Origin: Ardenticatenales bacterium
Lineage (GTDB): Bacteria; Chloroflexota; Anaerolineae; Ardenticatenales; Ardenticatenaceae
Assembly (NCBI GenBank): GCA_013812995.1
Contig: JACCSL010000044.1
Coordinates: 1 to 14,463, forward strand
Direction of reading: 5' to 3'
DNA length: 14,463 nucleotides
Below, in pieces: positions 6,740 to 12,288 of this stretch (position 1 is its first letter; the number at the start of each line of letters is the position of its first letter). Under the pieces are notes generated by a model, which saw only the letters and a list, made by a program, of their open reading frames with translations, was not told where the DNA came from and searched no databases. The translations under genes were made by a program, and so were the position numbers.

Positions 6740-7450
6740 TTAGTGGCTGCGGCGGCGGCTACCTGCACCAAGTGCCATAAATAAAAAATAGAGGAGGGAA
6801 GAGAGTGCCTGGGCAGCGCCTGCCACGTAGGTCAACGCGGCGGCCCGTAGCATATCATTGGCCTGCTTGCGCTCCTCCTCGTTGCGGAGAAGGCCATTGC
6901 TTTCCAGCATCGCCATCGCCCGGGTGCTGGCGTTGAGTTCCACGGGAAGGGTCACGAGGCTGAAGAAGGCCCCACCGCTGAAGGCGAGCACGCCCAGGAT
7001 GGCAAGCCAGGTGCTGCCCACCATCAAGCCTGCGATGAACATCAGGTAGCCCAGGGTGGAGCCGATCTTGAGCAGGGGAACCACGCCGGTGCGAACCTTC
7101 ATCCAGCTATAATTGTCCCGGTCCTGCAACGCGTGCCCTACCTCGTGCGCTGTCACAGCCATCGCCGCGACGCTGGCGCGCTGCCCGATATCGGGGGAGA
7201 GGCGCAGGATATTGCCCTGTGGATCGTAGTGATCGCTCAGTTTCCCCGGCGTGACCTCTAGCCCCACGGTGGGCAATTGCTCCTTGTTCAACAGGAGTTT
7301 GGCGACCTCGAAGCCGCTCATCCCGCTGCCGTTGGGAACCTCGGCATATTTGTTGTAGGTGCTTTGCACGCGCCACTGCGCATACGAGACCAGCAGAAGC
7401 GCAGGAAGGGCCAAAAGTAGATAGAGAGGATCGAAGCCAAAGCCGTTCAT
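6740..7450 (-). CDS. YugP-like zinc-dependent membrane metallopeptidase
   Basis: This 236-residue integral membrane peptidase contains the zincin motif HEVGH (102-106) within VTAHEVGHALQD, so His102 and His106 bind zinc and Glu103 is catalytic. A conserved Glu in LPVELNAS (Glu171) is the probable third ligand. Membrane spans are visible at about 8-24, 124-143, 146-168 and 207-226. This matches the neutral zinc metallopeptidase family typified by B. subtilis YugP, thought to act in membrane-protein quality control. The start at 7450 has GAGGT 5-6 nt upstream. In-frame sequence further 5' is intergenic. It begins a minus-strand cluster with the small stress protein and Yqj-type genes. Confidence 0.93.
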   Translation of the reverse strand: MNGFGFDPLYLLLALPALLLVSYAQWRVQSTYNKYAEVPNGSGMSGFEVAKLLLNKEQLPTVGLEVTPGKLSDHYDPQGNILRLSPDIGQRASVAAMAVTAHEVGHALQDRDNYSWMKVRTGVVPLLKIGSTLGYLMFIAGLMVGSTWLAILGVLAFSGGAFFSLVTLPVELNASTRAMAMLESNGLLRNEEERKQANDMLRAAALTYVAGAAQALSSLLYFLFMALGAGSRRRSH

Positions 7451-7616
7451 TGTTACCTCATTGGTGCCACATTGATGATTCCAGGTTTCCCGCAAAGCAA
7501 GAGCCATGCCAATTGTAGGCAAATGACATGCTGCTTGATAGTTAGCTAGGCAACTTCCTCCCAACCCTCTGGCAACATGATCGCGTTTCCGGCTTTGCCC
7601 TGACCATCTGGGCCTG
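7451..7616 (-). promoter_or_regulatory. Leader/promoter region of the Zn-peptidase gene, abutting the mobile element end
   Basis: This is 166 nt of non-coding DNA between the tnpB stop and the peptidase start. On the minus strand a TACAAT -10-like hexamer (7512-7517) sits inside GCCTACAATTGGC, whose outer GCC/GGC are complementary. No matching -35 at 16-18 bp is convincing. The end of the IS605-like element should lie in the first few tens of bases, so the original promoter may have been displaced by the insertion. Confidence 0.3.
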
Positions 7617-7760
7617 TCAACTACCCCCGGTTAGAAAGCGGGGGCTTGGCTCTAACGCATCGGTTGAGCCGTTCAACGAGGAGCGATAGCCCTCCTCGCC
7701 TAGCACATCTAAGCACAGGCCGGTTGACTGAGCGGCCCGGCGGGCAATGTTACCCGCCGC
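7605..7760 (-). ncRNA. Candidate omega-RNA (reRNA) at the tnpB 3' end
   Basis: On the minus strand the last ~140 nt of tnpB contain three successive stems: CGAGGAG/CTCCTCG (7677-7698), GTTGA/TCAAC (7663-7677) and CCCCCG/CGGGGG (7624-7644), the last overlapping the stop codon region. TnpB guide RNAs are known to come from the tnpB 3' end plus the element end, with the guide read from flanking DNA. The guide here would lie just below 7616. The 5' limit and processing are guesses. Confidence 0.45.
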
Positions 7761-8783
7761 AACAGTGTCAGCATGGCCGGAGAAACCACACTTAACACAG
7801 CAAAACTTGGACTGAGAAGGACGGTTACGCTTATCAATATGCTTGCACTCAGGATTAGGACACTCACGCGACGTGTTACGCGGGTCTACCAGGACAACGG
7901 GAACGCCCGCCAGAAAGCCTTTATAGGTGATTTTGGCGCGTAAATCGTAGAAGCTCCACGAGGCATGTTCTCTCCGTTGGCTTTTCCTAACCGTTACCCT
8001 CTCACGTATGCCCGTCAAGTCTTCAAGGGCGATACCGCGCGAGGTGCCTTTAGCCTTACCAACAAGCTCTGTGGAGATGACGTGATTCACGTCCTTAGCA
8101 AACCGACCTTCCTTGCGCGAGCGCTTCACCAAGAGGCGCGTGGCCGATGTGGTGCCTTTGCTCTGCAAGTGCTGGCGAATCTTGAAGTGACGGGTACGCA
8201 GCCCGTTGACCTTTGCGCCACTGTAGCGCTTCCCGTCACTATCGCTGGCGATGTTCTTAATCCCAAGGTCAACCCCAAGGTACTCGGAAACATCCGCCTG
8301 GGGAGCCTCTTCGACTCGGCACGTCGCATAGAGGTAAAACTTGCCCTTGCGGTACACAAGGTCGCTCTCGCCCCATTGCCCTTGCAAAAGCGCCCGGTGG
8401 TACTCGCCACACACAAAGGGGATGGTCAAGCGCCCGGCTACCGTCCAGATCGTCACCTCGCGTTGTTCGGGCCAGTAGGTGAGCATCCGAGCATCAAAGG
8501 GGATAGCCCCCGTAGGCTTGAAGGTCCGTAGGGTGTCCTTGTCCAACTTGTAGGCATCCTTCACCTTGCCGATGCACCGTACCGCCAGTTGAGCACCTAA
8601 GCCGTATTGCACTTTAACATCGTAATAGACCAACTCATGCAGCTTGAACTGGCTAAAGGTGCGAGTCTCCCATGCCACCGCGCTGATATGGTTGCAGGCG
8701 GCGTTGCCAATGGCGAGCGTCCGCTTTAAGGCGTCGGCTTGCTCTGGCGTGGGGAGTATCTTCAAGGTCGCGGTAAGTTTCAC
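7617..8783 (-). CDS. tnpB: TnpB RNA-guided nuclease (IS200/IS605 family OrfB)
   Basis: This 388-residue protein has an intact TnpB layout. An N-terminal Rec/wedge-type region opens with KLTATLKILPTPEQ. The RuvC-I motif is GVDLGIKN (Asp172), RuvC-II is ALEDLTGI (Glu254) and RuvC-III is HADTVAAGNIARRA (Asp339). A zinc finger lies in between, with CPNPEC (Cys308, Cys313) and CVKCG (Cys329, Cys332). All three acidic residues and the four cysteines are present, so it should be an active RNA-guided DNA endonuclease. The start is a GTG 3 nt after the HTH gene's TAG, with GAGGA overlapping that stop, so translation is coupled. The last codons overlap a terminal hairpin from which the guide RNA is expected to derive. 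Confidence 0.95.
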   Translation of the reverse strand: MKLTATLKILPTPEQADALKRTLAIGNAACNHISAVAWETRTFSQFKLHELVYYDVKVQYGLGAQLAVRCIGKVKDAYKLDKDTLRTFKPTGAIPFDARMLTYWPEQREVTIWTVAGRLTIPFVCGEYHRALLQGQWGESDLVYRKGKFYLYATCRVEEAPQADVSEYLGVDLGIKNIASDSDGKRYSGAKVNGLRTRHFKIRQHLQSKGTTSATRLLVKRSRKEGRFAKDVNHVISTELVGKAKGTSRGIALEDLTGIRERVTVRKSQRREHASWSFYDLRAKITYKGFLAGVPVVLVDPRNTSRECPNPECKHIDKRNRPSQSKFCCVKCGFSGHADTVAAGNIARRAAQSTGLCLDVLGEEGYRSSLNGSTDALEPSPRFLTGGS

Positions 8784-8786
8784 GGG

Positions 8787-9059
8787 CTATTCCTCTTGGG
8801 CCTCTGCCGGGCGATAAGCTATCAAGTCGTGAGCTTCCATCGGGAAACCGCGCCGCCTCATCTCGTCAATAATCGCTGCCCCTGTTTCCAGGTTGAAGCG
8901 GGTAACGTGATTGTTGGCGATGTTGGACATGGTAATGGGGTGGATACCGACCGCTTCAGCCAAGGCCACGATGGAAGGGACTTCCCGCCGTTGTGATTCT
9001 GACCTGCTCTGCTCTAGGGCTTCCATCTGTGCTAAGTATCCCTTGAGGGCGATGTACAT
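8787..9059 (-). CDS. XRE-type helix-turn-helix regulator co-transcribed with tnpB
   Basis: This 90-residue protein is almost entirely one DNA-binding domain. An N-terminal helix (MYIALKGYLAQMEALEQ) is followed by VPSIVALAEAVGIHPITMSN (27-46), a classical Cro/C1-type helix-turn-helix. A segment resembling the XRE ending 'NGKVTRIDLETL' follows (NNHVTRFNLETGAAIIDEMRRRG, 49-71). The start at 9059 is set by AGGAGG (9064-9069). A strong promoter (-10 at 9100-9105) puts the transcript start near 9093, which excludes the upstream in-frame ATGs at 9101 and 9128. It ends 3 nt before tnpB, forming a tight two-gene operon. I infer that it represses this operon and the divergent tnpA promoter. The family is certain enough; the target is inferred. 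Confidence 0.88.
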   Translation of the reverse strand: MYIALKGYLAQMEALEQSRSESQRREVPSIVALAEAVGIHPITMSNIANNHVTRFNLETGAAIIDEMRRRGFPMEAHDLIAYRPAEAQEE

Positions 9060-9099
9060 AGCGCCTCCTGTGTGGGGTTGGGTATCACTCTTGGAAGTC

Positions 9100-9128
9100 A
9101 TTGTATATCCCTTTCCGCTAGATGTCAA
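9100..9128 (-). promoter_or_regulatory. Sigma-70 promoter of the HTH-tnpB operon
   Basis: On the minus strand a perfect TTGACA -35 (9123-9128), an exact 17-bp spacer and TACAAT -10 (9100-9105) are present. Transcription would start near 9093, giving a leader of about 34 nt with an AGGAGG ribosome-binding site. Confidence 0.78.
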
Positions 9129-9146
9129 GCATAATAAGCTAGTATT

Positions 9147-9204
9147 CTAGTACTAAACGCTTGGACTTCTAGCCACAGTCTGTTATACTCTAGTCGTAAA
9201 CGCT
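9147..9204. repeat. Pair of 15-bp direct repeats between divergent promoters (operator candidates)
   Basis: CTAGTACTAAACGCT (9147-9161) and CTAGTCGTAAACGCT (9190-9204) match at 13 of 15 positions and start 43 bp apart, about four helical turns. One copy abuts the -35 and the other follows the -10 of the plus-strand promoter. They are the natural binding sites for the adjacent HTH protein, though this is inference. The second copy also lies in an inverted repeat, CTCTAG...CTAGAG. Confidence 0.5.
9161..9189 (+). promoter_or_regulatory. Sigma-70 promoter pointing toward the tnpA remnant
   Basis: TTGGAC (9161-9166), 17 bp, then TATACT (9184-9189) make a well-formed plus-strand promoter. Transcription would start near 9196. 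The leader to 9272 has no open gene but ends in GAAAGGA, which looks like a ribosome-binding site left behind after the 5' part of tnpA was lost. Confidence 0.6.
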
Positions 9205-9277
9205 AGAGTAACACAGATTGCTCTGGCGGCAACAAAATAGTGAAGGCACCGAGGGGCCAGCCACCAGAAAGGACTAG

Positions 9278-9550
9278 CGTAAGTCTTGCGCAACCACAGG
9301 CCAAGTGGCTTCCCAGGCCGAAATTTCGACACTTCCGGGGTTCTCGGTCAGCGCCTCTTAGATCCCTTTCGGCTTCTTGGTAGCCGTCCAGGGGCATTCC
9401 CGTGGTATTTTCTGTATAAACTTGACGATAGCGAGTAAAAAACCGACGCGAGCAGCTTCAAGTATGCAGAATCGGGCTGTTGCTCCGGGCAGGAAGTCTC
9501 GAAAAATCGAGCGTTTGAGCCTTTCCTGCTCAGGTTGCGCAAGACTTACG
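9278..9550. mobile_element. 273-bp MITE-like element with perfect 18-bp terminal inverted repeats
   Basis: CGTAAGTCTTGCGCAACC (9278-9295) is perfectly repeated in inverse orientation at 9533-9550. Both ends are flanked by CTAG (9274-9277 and 9551-9554), consistent with a 4-bp target duplication of IS5-type transposases, or with TA-type insertion if the repeat is longer. Counting the palindromic flank, the inverted match is 23 bp. The interior has no recognisable transposase; short open frames on both strands look random. It sits where the 5' part of tnpA should be. Confidence 0.72.
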
Positions 9551-9554
9551 CTAG

Positions 9555-9749
9555 TACAGCCCGGCAGAAGTGGCGAGACTCTTTAAGGGGGCAATGTCGC
9601 GGATTCTCAGGCTAGAGTTCCCTACCGAGATAGGGCGCTTTATCTGGCAACAGGGCACCCTTTGGGCACCGTCCTACTATGTCGGCACCGCTGGCAATGT
9701 AAGCGCCGACGTTATCAAGCGGTACATTCTGGAATGCCAACGTATCTGA
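9555..9749 (+). pseudogene. tnpA: 3' remnant of IS200/IS605 Y1 transposase tnpA
   Basis: An open frame of 64 codons encodes the C-terminal half of an IS200-type transposase. It begins YSPAEVARLFKG, continues through a segment typical of these enzymes (LEFPTEIGRF), and ends with the highly characteristic LWAPSYYVGTAGNVSADV and KRYIL. The Tyr in KRYIL (residue 57 of the remnant) is at the expected nucleophile position. The N-terminal half with the HUH metal-binding motif is missing. A TAG and the end of the 273-bp element lie immediately upstream, and nothing to the left of that element resembles it. Family enzymes are usually about 130-155 residues, so roughly 80-90 residues are lost and the protein cannot be active. 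It was missed by ORF-length criteria because it has no start codon. Confidence 0.85.
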
Positions 9750-9765
9750 CAAGCCGCGTATCTAC

Positions 9766-9790
9766 GCCTCCCGGCGTCAAGCCGGGAGGC
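9766..9790. repeat. Perfect 10-bp hairpin downstream of tnpA
   Basis: GCCTCCCGGC and GCCGGGAGGC pair fully around a 5-nt GTCAA loop, 16 nt after the tnpA stop. Subterminal hairpins of this kind are what Y1 transposases recognise at the ends of IS200/IS605 elements. There is no T-run, so a simple terminator is less likely. Confidence 0.7.
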
Positions 9791-9824
9791 AAAACCAACC
9801 ATCTATTTATGAAGATGGGAGGTA

Positions 9825-9870
9825 AGCCCCATTCCTCCCCTGGCTAGAAGCCAGGGGTTTCCTTGGGGCT
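9825..9870. repeat. Nested inverted repeat near the tnpA-side terminus
   Basis: Outer arms AGCCCC (9825-9830) and GGGGCT (9865-9870) enclose a perfect inner hairpin CCCCTGGCT/AGCCAGGGG (9837-9845, 9849-9857) with a 3-nt loop. It probably marks the terminus of the IS605-like element. It may be a second element's end, because the hairpin at 9766-9790 would already suffice for one terminus. Confidence 0.6.
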
Positions 9871-9876
9871 AACGTC

Positions 9877-10167
9877 ATCGGTAACAAATTAAGGAAACTC
9901 ACGGGCTGTCAAATAGGGCACAAATCCCCGTCATTCTGGATACCAAAGGTCGTCTTGGGACCGTCTTGGGACATTCAGAGGCATGATCGCTTAGTTTTTT
10001 TGATCAACAGGGTTTGACCAAGGACGAAACCAGGTGCTTCCAGAAAATCGCGGAAAATACATAGGTAAAGTTTGTGACAAATTGCTTCAGTAAGATGGCA
10101 CTCTTAGAGAGAAATCTTGTTTAATAGTGATTTGACGGTTGGCTCAAAACCTTAACTTCTTACTGAT
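9877..10167. mobile_element. 291-bp MITE-like element with 11-bp target site duplication
   Basis: The exact direct repeat GGGCTAACGTC occurs at 9866-9876 and 10168-10178. Just inside it are imperfect terminal inverted repeats. ATCGGTAAC...TTAAGG (9877-9894) matches the reverse complement of 10150-10167 at 15 of 18 bases, and GTCAAAT at offset 32-38 from each end also matches. An 11-bp duplication with such ends fits the IS4/IS231 group. The interior is AT-richer than its surroundings and encodes no recognisable protein. It includes a tandem CGTCTTGGGAC duplication at 9951-9972. Confidence 0.7.
9951..9972. repeat. Tandem 11-bp duplication CGTCTTGGGAC
   Basis: Two exact, immediately adjacent copies (9951-9961, 9962-9972) lie inside the 291-bp element. 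They may be replication slippage or a paired protein-binding site. Confidence 0.6.
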
Positions 10168-10195
10168 GGGCTAACGTCTATGAAGAAGCCCCAGG

Positions 10196-11282: not shown

Positions 11283-12251
11283 TCACAGCGCGGGCGCGGC
11301 GAGCTGCTCCACGCGCGCGCCGGTCTCGCGCCAGGTAATCTCGCTGAGCCCCAGCTTGCGCCGGATGAGGTCGGGGTCCATCCCCGCGCGACAGTCTCGC
11401 ACGGCGCAGGTCATGCGCACCATCTCGAAGGAGACCTGCTTGCTCAGTCCCGCTGCCTCCGCCAGCCCCTGGAGCACATATTCCAGGTTGCGCGGCGTGC
11501 ATTCAAAGAGATGATCCTCGACCTTGTGCTGCGCGATGTATTCATCGTACACCCTCGGAAAATCCAGCGGTAGCGCCAGCTTGCGCTCCTTCAGGGAATA
11601 GCGCGGGTTGCTGTAGCGGATGTAGACCACGGGCTCTTCCGGGTGGCTGAAATCCAGATGCTCAAGCGCGATGCCGACGGCCTCGCTCTTCTTCATGGCC
11701 GTTTTGAGCAGGAGCGTGAAGAGGAGGTAGGGACGGGCATCGGGCTTCTCCTCGGCGTAGCGCAGGGCCTCGGCGGTAGTGAGTAGCGTCTCTATCTCGT
11801 CATCATAAAGAATCTCGGGCAGCGGGATGCGCACGGGCTCATGGATGAGCGGCGCGGCGGGGTCGCGAACGATGATCTGCTCCTCGTAGAGCCACTTGAA
11901 GAAATTCTTGAGCGAGGTGATGCGCCGCTGGTAGCTCTTGGGCGAGCAGGGCACGTTTCGCCCCTCGCGCAGGTAGACCAGAAAATCGTGCAGCTCCTTT
12001 GTCCCAAACTTGTTGATCGCAGTCGCGCGCCCGTGGAAGCGGGCCATCAAGTTGAGATCGTTGCGAAACGATTTGATGGTGTGGATTGAGAAGCGTTTGA
12101 GCGCCATCCACTCCTCCCACTCACTAATGGCGGAGGCCAGGCTGGACTCGGCGGTGAGCGGCGGGCGGGCAGTGACGGGGGGGCCGAGTTGCCCGCTGGG
12201 GTCGATGTTGAACAGAGGTAATTGCTTGGGGTCTTTGCGCGGCCTCGCCAT
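11283..12251 (-). CDS. Tyrosine recombinase-like (Xer/phage integrase fold) protein lacking catalytic residues
   Basis: This 322-residue protein has the two-domain layout of Xer-type recombinases. The N-terminal SAM-like core-binding domain (about 36-130) includes SYQRRITSLKNFFKWLYEEQII and DPAAPLI. The C-terminal catalytic-type domain (about 143-314) includes LPEILYDDEIETLL. Aligning signature motifs by eye, TGLRxSE reads TAMKKSE (Arg to Lys187) and HxLRH reads EMVRM (276-280; only Arg279 kept). LGH reads LGL, and the nucleophile Tyr position is Gly311. Lys221 (SLKERKLALPL) is kept. Strand transfer is therefore predicted to be impossible, while DNA binding may remain. The start at 12251 has AGGAGG 4-5 nt upstream. 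It is followed by the SH3b gene and divergent from the C25 protease. Confidence 0.88.
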   Translation of the reverse strand: MARPRKDPKQLPLFNIDPSGQLGPPVTARPPLTAESSLASAISEWEEWMALKRFSIHTIKSFRNDLNLMARFHGRATAINKFGTKELHDFLVYLREGRNVPCSPKSYQRRITSLKNFFKWLYEEQIIVRDPAAPLIHEPVRIPLPEILYDDEIETLLTTAEALRYAEEKPDARPYLLFTLLLKTAMKKSEAVGIALEHLDFSHPEEPVVYIRYSNPRYSLKERKLALPLDFPRVYDEYIAQHKVEDHLFECTPRNLEYVLQGLAEAAGLSKQVSFEMVRMTCAVRDCRAGMDPDLIRRKLGLSEITWRETGARVEQLAAPAL

Positions 12252-12288
12252 CTCGCCTCCTGGCTTTTTCGTGTAGAGCAATGTCGAA

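Follow-up and report, generated by a model that had tools for sequence, protein, structure and literature searches.

An XRE-family regulator gene directly ahead of tnpB in an IS605-type element of an Ardenticatenales bacterium

In a 14,463-nucleotide stretch of DNA from an Ardenticatenales bacterium of the Chloroflexota (GenBank assembly GCA_013812995.1, contig JACCSL010000044.1, here C391; henceforth the window) we describe a putative IS200/IS605-type element in which xre, a small gene for a Cro/C1-type (XRE) helix-turn-helix (HTH) regulator, lies directly upstream of tnpB, the gene of an RNA-guided nuclease, and back to back with a remnant of the transposase gene tnpA. The same gene order recurs on another contig of this genome (C626), next to an intact tnpA and with a TnpB of a different lineage. 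This suggests that the regulator is a component of the element and may control the amount of its nuclease, and we lean, by a modest degree, towards the reading that the XRE protein is an element-encoded autoregulator of tnpA and tnpB in an IS605-type element.

The xre-tnpB gene pair

7616-9876, unstranded: putative IS200/IS605-type element of about 2.26 kb, holding the xre-tnpB operon and, divergent from it, a tnpA remnant, cleavage points predicted
8787-9059, minus strand: xre, 90-aa Cro/C1-type (XRE) HTH regulator, ATG start, stop 3 nt ahead of tnpB
7617-8783, minus strand: tnpB, 388 aa, TnpB family of RNA-guided endonucleases, GTG start, stop within the final bases of the putative element
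7616-7800, minus strand: predicted omega-RNA scaffold and tnpB 3' region, right-end hairpin at about 7624-7644

Within the putative element only tnpB, xre and the tnpA stump were recognised. The best start of xre is the ATG at 9057-9059, preceded by AGGAGGCGCT; its stop codon (8787-8789) leaves a 3-nt gap to the GTG of tnpB (8781-8783), and a GAGGA-type ribosome-binding site for tnpB is situated within the 3' end of xre, so that the tight operon arrangement proposed in a preliminary description of the window holds. The GTG lines up with Met1 of 14 aligned homologues. TnpB matches the NCBIfam family guided_TnpB (NF040570) at 158 bits (cut-off 100), and its sequence matches include solved TnpB and Cas12f structures. 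D172, E254 and D339, which we take to be the RuvC acidic residues, are invariant in a 15-row alignment together with C308, C313, C329 and C332 (nearest relative 91% identical), in agreement with the earlier statement that TnpB keeps all its RuvC acidic residues and zinc cysteines. Judged from its sequence, TnpB looks catalytically intact. Several named relatives of TnpB, and one of TnpA, come from Chloroflexota.

The region 7590-7800 of the minus strand folds at -96.1 kcal/mol (z -3.34), and an Rfam scan of the window gave nothing at gathering score. We read 7616-7800 as a putative omega-RNA by analogy with known TnpB biology, since in one studied case the tnpB mRNA itself is the source of the guide RNA (PMC10278001). 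In the same genome, C508:1321-1566 holds a relative of the tnpB 3' region and right end, split in two and probably decayed.

The XRE family comprises 17 database proteins, including the window's own record; the other 16 are 49–76% identical to it. Against Pfam HTH_26 the window protein scores 15.1 bits, under the cut-off of 22 and thus short of the curated threshold, and 14 of the 17 family members match this model (E up to 1). Its AlphaFold model (pLDDT 91.1; helices 30-37 and 41-48) is a single HTH domain plus a short low-confidence tail, with no additional toxin-binding domain. The best fold matches found by Foldseek are mainly Cro/C1-type proteins (CapH, ClgR, SinR, C.Kpn2I, C.BclI, HipB, Aca11), which include regulators of defence or nuclease operons (CapH, C.Kpn2I, C.BclI, HipB, Aca11), and for this reason we count them in favour of an autoregulator. 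The predicted model supports a DNA-binding regulator, and the fold says nothing about its target.

A second element with the same gene order

The genome (assembly G000; 5.03 Mb in 1069 contigs, 83.57% complete, 3.96% contamination) holds four XRE-family genes, two of which, in the window and on C626, are directly upstream of tnpB. On C626 an intact 139-aa tnpA (NF033573, 140 bits) is oriented away from xre, which is followed 21 nt on by the gene of a 389-aa TnpB (223 bits). Compared with their counterparts in the window, TnpA is 91% identical over the part preserved in the stump, XRE 49% and TnpB 24%, and the DNA of the tnpA end region is 83% identical over 300 bases. Given that the two elements share their gene order while their TnpBs are of different lineages, the XRE gene looks like part of the IS605-type element. 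An exchange of TnpB between the two would fit the reported independence of TnpB phylogeny from element phylogeny (PMC9956272). As C626 has both the regulator and an intact tnpA, the presence of the regulator is independent of tnpA loss.

By a rough estimate, with the genome assumed to have about 5,000 genes, about 10 of them tnpB, finding two of four XRE genes ahead of tnpB by chance has a probability of the order of 1e-5 to 1e-4; five tnpB genes were seen in this genome, four in one search plus that of C626. Given an assembly that is incomplete and contaminated, C626 might be misbinned.

The control region between tnpA and xre

9100-9128, minus strand: putative xre-tnpB promoter, TTGACA-17-TACAAT, 11 of 12 consensus matches
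9162-9189, plus strand: weaker putative promoter directed towards tnpA, TGGACT-16-TATACT with TG ahead of the second hexamer, 9 of 12 matches
9176-9220, unstranded: candidate operator O1, hyphenated palindrome with 18-nt arms 83% complementary, core TACTCTAG-n9-CTAGAGTA
9143-9161, unstranded: candidate operator O2, 19-nt stretch that repeats 9186-9204 in direct orientation (84%), 43 bp away from it

The near-consensus promoter of the preliminary description was found again ahead of xre. A promoter scan of 2.7 kb gave two sites against a shuffle mean of 1.6; as this count is not above chance, the argument rests on the quality and position of the sites. The O1 palindrome, with a score reached in one of 150 shuffles, and the -10 of the tnpA-ward promoter overlap. 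The O2 repeat lies immediately upstream of the xre -35, with a score reached in none of the 150. CTAG occurs six times in the 213 bases between xre and a transposon-like insertion beyond it (see below), against a shuffle mean of 2.0, and six were reached in 36 of 5,000 shuffles. Repeats placed between two facing promoters fit the needs of a regulator, and on these sequence grounds both would be plausible binding sites for the XRE protein.

A comparable spacing was noted upstream of a solitary XRE relative in another genome (G324; L012:1806-1868), where a 19-nt repeat recurs 44 bp apart (43 bp in the window).

Element ends and the broken tnpA

9555-9749, plus strand: tnpA stump, C-terminal 64 codons plus stop, HUH motif gone
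9273-9555, unstranded: insertion resembling a miniature inverted-repeat transposable element (MITE), 283 bp, perfect 23-nt inverted ends at 9273-9295 and 9533-9555, probable CTAG target duplication
9826-9876, unstranded: left-end-like hairpin, CCCCTGGCTAGAAGCCAGGGG, outer GCCCCA/TGGGGC stem

The tnpA remnant covers positions 75-124 of the NF033573 model and begins at about residue 75 of aligned TnpAs, so the transposase is truncated, as the preliminary description had it; the conserved MPDH-H stretch (61-66), which we take to be the HUH motif, is missing. Since the Y1 (HUH) part is gone, the window copy can be no more than a decayed member of the IS200/IS605 family (IS605 group). Elements with tnpB only form a known class, the IS1341 group, defined by having no tnpA-derived sequence (PMC9956272), and the window carries the stump.

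The MITE-like insertion adjoins the break, where the 5' part of tnpA is missing. A second copy, 96% identical, lies at C96:478-760 of the same genome, and the break may for this reason be recent. The inverted end has no third copy in the genome at up to two mismatches, and no autonomous partner was found via the ends. From the CTAG on either side of the window copy we presume a target duplication of the IS5 kind; the C96 copy is flanked by CTAG and CGAG. We considered whether tnpA might be complete but for this insertion and rejected it, as inspection by eye showed no tnpA N-terminus encoded in the 213 bases that separate xre from the insertion. These bases are also close in length to the intergenic region of C626 (206), so that about 75 tnpA codons seem to be missing.

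Both putative ends have subterminal hairpins like those of other ends in the genome, as in the IS605 group. Ends similar to the low one (GTCAAC at 7616; minus strand ...GGGGGTAGTTGAC) occur at C331, C936, C256, C278 and C886, and ends similar to the high one (...GGGGCTAACGTC at 9865-9876) at C936, C991, C753 and C331. At C331:2339-4074 and C936:7171-8907 ends of both kinds, about 1.7 kb apart, enclose an IscB gene (329 bits at each locus against a cut-off of 175), and a HEARO RNA match (101.6 bits; L229:1153-1380) lies beside the C753 end copy; TnpB and IscB elements may here share ends and transposase. Going by their sequence, both ends of the window element look preserved, and the related intact tnpA of C626 could act on the element in trans.

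The motif GGAGCTAACGTCTATG (window 9826-9876 and 10167-10182; C331, C936, C991, C753, C572, C733 and others) has 29 matches in the genome with at most two mismatches; the reversed motif has none, and each of 59 other genomes has 0–4. An end-like hairpin, CTCC-ATTCCTCCC...GGG-TTCCC-TGGAG, precedes 15 of 27 matches of a shorter motif by a simple pattern rule, and 18 of the 27 by eye, where one altered hairpin and one interrupted by the end of its contig were counted in. These matches often stand right before long open reading frames (ORFs; by eye, L25-like, GatA-like, PanC-like and ErpA-like), and the search pattern for the motif itself demanded TATG. That the motif is a plain host leader only was rejected, since many matches have the end-like hairpin and the C331 and C936 ends flank IscB. 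Many matches are probably element ends beside start codons, an account that does not cover those without a hairpin; the sites are perhaps IS200/IS605-type ends that supply a Shine-Dalgarno sequence to start codons, or leader RNA.

Just outside the high end, 9876-9960 (CATCGGTAACAAATTAAGGAAACTC onward) is a repeat that recurs on C129 from 1991, and the two copies break off sharply at an identical base. A Zn_peptidase_2 metallopeptidase gene (253 bits) at 6740-7477 follows tnpB on its strand; as its likely start is no more than about 170 bases from the element, read-through from tnpB would enter it. Further away, the ORF at 11283-12281 is of the tyrosine integrase family (Phage_integrase 42 bits, N-terminal SAM-like domain).

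Distribution of the pairing

Several observations count against an element-encoded regulator. None of the 160 fetched relatives of the window TnpB (41–60% identity, from genome and viral contigs) carries the XRE gene (best E 0.4), with at least 400 bases of upstream sequence at 152 of these loci and under 400 at the other eight. Three other genomes yielded six tnpA relatives (E up to 1e-40), likewise without the XRE gene, five of which stand beside a window-type tnpB (three divergent, two tandem) and one beside IscB. The other two XRE paralogues of the genome (C232, C459) have no adjacent tnpB, nor do two of the three full-length relatives in a class sample have one nearby; the contig of the third, in G166, ends 133 bases further on, so its context cannot be judged. 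When the sizes of source contigs were compared (16 XRE relatives against the best 120 of 404 TnpA and the best 120 of 7205 TnpB matches), XRE and TnpB shared only the window's own, XRE and TnpA none, and TnpA and TnpB five, among the matches listed and with the proviso that a shared size may be chance. The two elements of the genome also differ from each other. In a tree of poor resolution their XREs do not group as sisters. At C626 neither a palindrome nor a repeat in the control region is significant (equalled in 144 and 60 of 150 shuffles, respectively) and CTAG is absent, which counts against a shared operator, and the likeness of C626 to the high end of the window element stops within the hairpin, at 9852, so that the end of C626 itself differs and mobilisation in trans is less sure. 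Lastly, no Foldseek match of the XRE model reached E <= 0.001.

The class sample consisted of 396 genomes, ten of which matched XRE: the genome studied here, three with a full-length relative (G166, G199, G324) and six with weak matches (2.2e-5 to 6.2e-4). These six were not counted as XRE family, as they lie inside longer frames of 352–441 aa. In 100 relatives and a phylum sample of 400 genomes (E up to 1e-8 in the latter) only the genome itself matched; an alignment scan of genome contigs and viral contigs gave no relatives, and XRE was absent from plasmid and phage collections in a protein search and from plasmids in a DNA search. Queries for the protein database and for the searches of the own genome and the 100 relatives were without the initial Met, later ones with it.

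It had been proposed that the pairing would be accidental if related tnpB genes never carried the regulator upstream. The relatives examined do lack it, and the second element has it ahead of a TnpB of another lineage, so the pairing looks rare, and neither universal nor clearly accidental. As it was unseen outside this genome in the loci examined, the XRE gene seems to have been acquired recently by a narrow lineage of elements and not to be a general partner of TnpB.

Mechanism and rival explanations

On the reading that we favour, that of an element-encoded autoregulator akin to the C proteins of restriction-modification systems or the Xre proteins of CRISPR-associated transposons, xre would have been gained between the divergent tnpA and tnpB of an IS605-type element, in a position suited to co-transcription and translational coupling with tnpB. 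The XRE protein would bind the CTAG-rich palindrome and the repeat between the facing promoters, hold down the tnpA-ward promoter and set the level of its own xre-tnpB mRNA. In the studied case the guide RNA of TnpB is made from its own mRNA, so that one regulated promoter could set protein and guide alike; the guide level would follow here if the omega-RNA derives from the xre-tnpB mRNA. In an established host both transposase and nuclease would be kept low, and in a newly entered cell, which lacks the regulator, both would be expressed for a time. In the window copy tnpA has been cut down, with the MITE-like element at the break, and regulator and nuclease remain; any movement would presumably depend on TnpA acting in trans. 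The earlier suggestion that the HTH protein controls nuclease dose or tnpA is in this form the best inference available, tempered by the predicted nature of the binding and by the lack of such repeats at C626. More tentatively, and on the doubtful side of our expectations, a lineage of IS605-type elements may bring along a dedicated XRE controller by which the onset of nuclease and transposase in a newly entered cell is timed, the module staying in place while TnpB is exchanged.

The xre gene might instead be a passenger, a solitary host-type gene captured between tnpA and tnpB with no element-specific role. XRE relatives are solitary elsewhere, related tnpA/tnpB elements manage without the gene and C626 has no operator-like repeats, all of which this account would explain; we nevertheless think it rather unlikely, in view of the same gene order in two elements of one genome with unrelated TnpBs, the 3-nt coupling of xre to tnpB and the significant repeats between the facing promoters of the window. 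The preliminary description took the pair for a regulated TnpB that was kept when the element ceased to move, comparable to domesticated TnpB derivatives, and a host could have kept xre-tnpB for defence or gene control once tnpA was gone. An intact TnpB beside a broken tnpA, under a strong promoter, is what such a history would leave, but a regulator of the same family accompanies an intact tnpA at C626, both ends look preserved, the break may be recent if the 96% identity of the MITE-like copies is a guide, and a padloc search with XRE returned nothing at E up to 0.1. This part of the preliminary description we therefore consider improbable. Less probable again is a toxin-antitoxin-like pair, in which the XRE protein would bind and restrain the TnpB protein, or its loss would free TnpB. 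The order of the genes, a small one first and a potentially toxic enzyme second, and the presence of HipB, HigA2 and CHU_2935-type antitoxins in the fold-match list speak for it; the model, however, is one HTH domain with nothing beyond its short low-confidence tail to bind a toxin, and two such XREs accompany TnpBs only 24% identical, unlike a specific protein pair.

Comparison with known systems

TldR proteins are themselves RNA-guided regulators whose nuclease has been lost, whereas the TnpB of the window keeps D172, E254 and D339 and its regulator is a separate HTH protein. They are described as nuclease-dead TnpB descendants tied to gene regulation (PMC13418256). The closest element type is IS605c, within the IS200/IS605 superfamily, with a Y1 tnpA and a tnpB in reverse orientation (PMC9956272); the window shares with it the divergent tnpA and tnpB, the hairpin ends and a guided TnpB, and differs in the extra XRE gene between them and in the broken tnpA.

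Regulators in comparable positions are found in other mobile systems. The Xre regulators RtaC and RtbC of CRISPR-associated transposons, likened here by description, are likewise XRE proteins inside an RNA-guided mobile element, and according to a review they regulate transposition, with zygotic induction; their carriers are Tn7-like transposons with a type I effector, whereas ours is a Y1 insertion sequence whose regulator is followed at once by a nuclease that looks intact, and no CRISPR-Cas or Tn7-like genes were recognised in the putative element. CvkR represses cas12k and tnsB in type V-K CRISPR-associated transposons (PMC9938897) and is, like the proposed role of XRE, an element-encoded repressor of a Cas12-family effector and a transposition gene, but it is of the MerR type and its carrier Tn7-like. 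The C proteins of restriction-modification systems have the regulator-then-nuclease order, paired palindromes and a nuclease delayed in new cells (PMC8053105). In the window a small HTH gene likewise precedes a nuclease gene, with a 3-nt gap and one promoter that would suit a bicistronic operon, and one palindrome plus a repeat 43 bp away are candidates for paired operators; the layout is comparable by analogy only. Unlike in those systems, the nuclease is RNA-guided and no methyltransferase was recognised in the element, none being found among 13 window ORFs scanned against Pfam (6 + 7 ORFs, a part of all window ORFs). In the literature searched, with most subscription journals outside it, no IS200/IS605 element with an XRE gene ahead of its tnpB was reported.

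TnpB can cut the chromosome of its host, and the means by which IS200/IS605 elements keep it under control are, to our knowledge, largely an open question. A dedicated transcription factor ahead of tnpB, if true, would allow dose and timing to be tested with a single small protein and about 200 bp of DNA, and IS605 elements would then stand beside restriction-modification systems and CRISPR-associated transposons, each having recruited HTH regulators separately.

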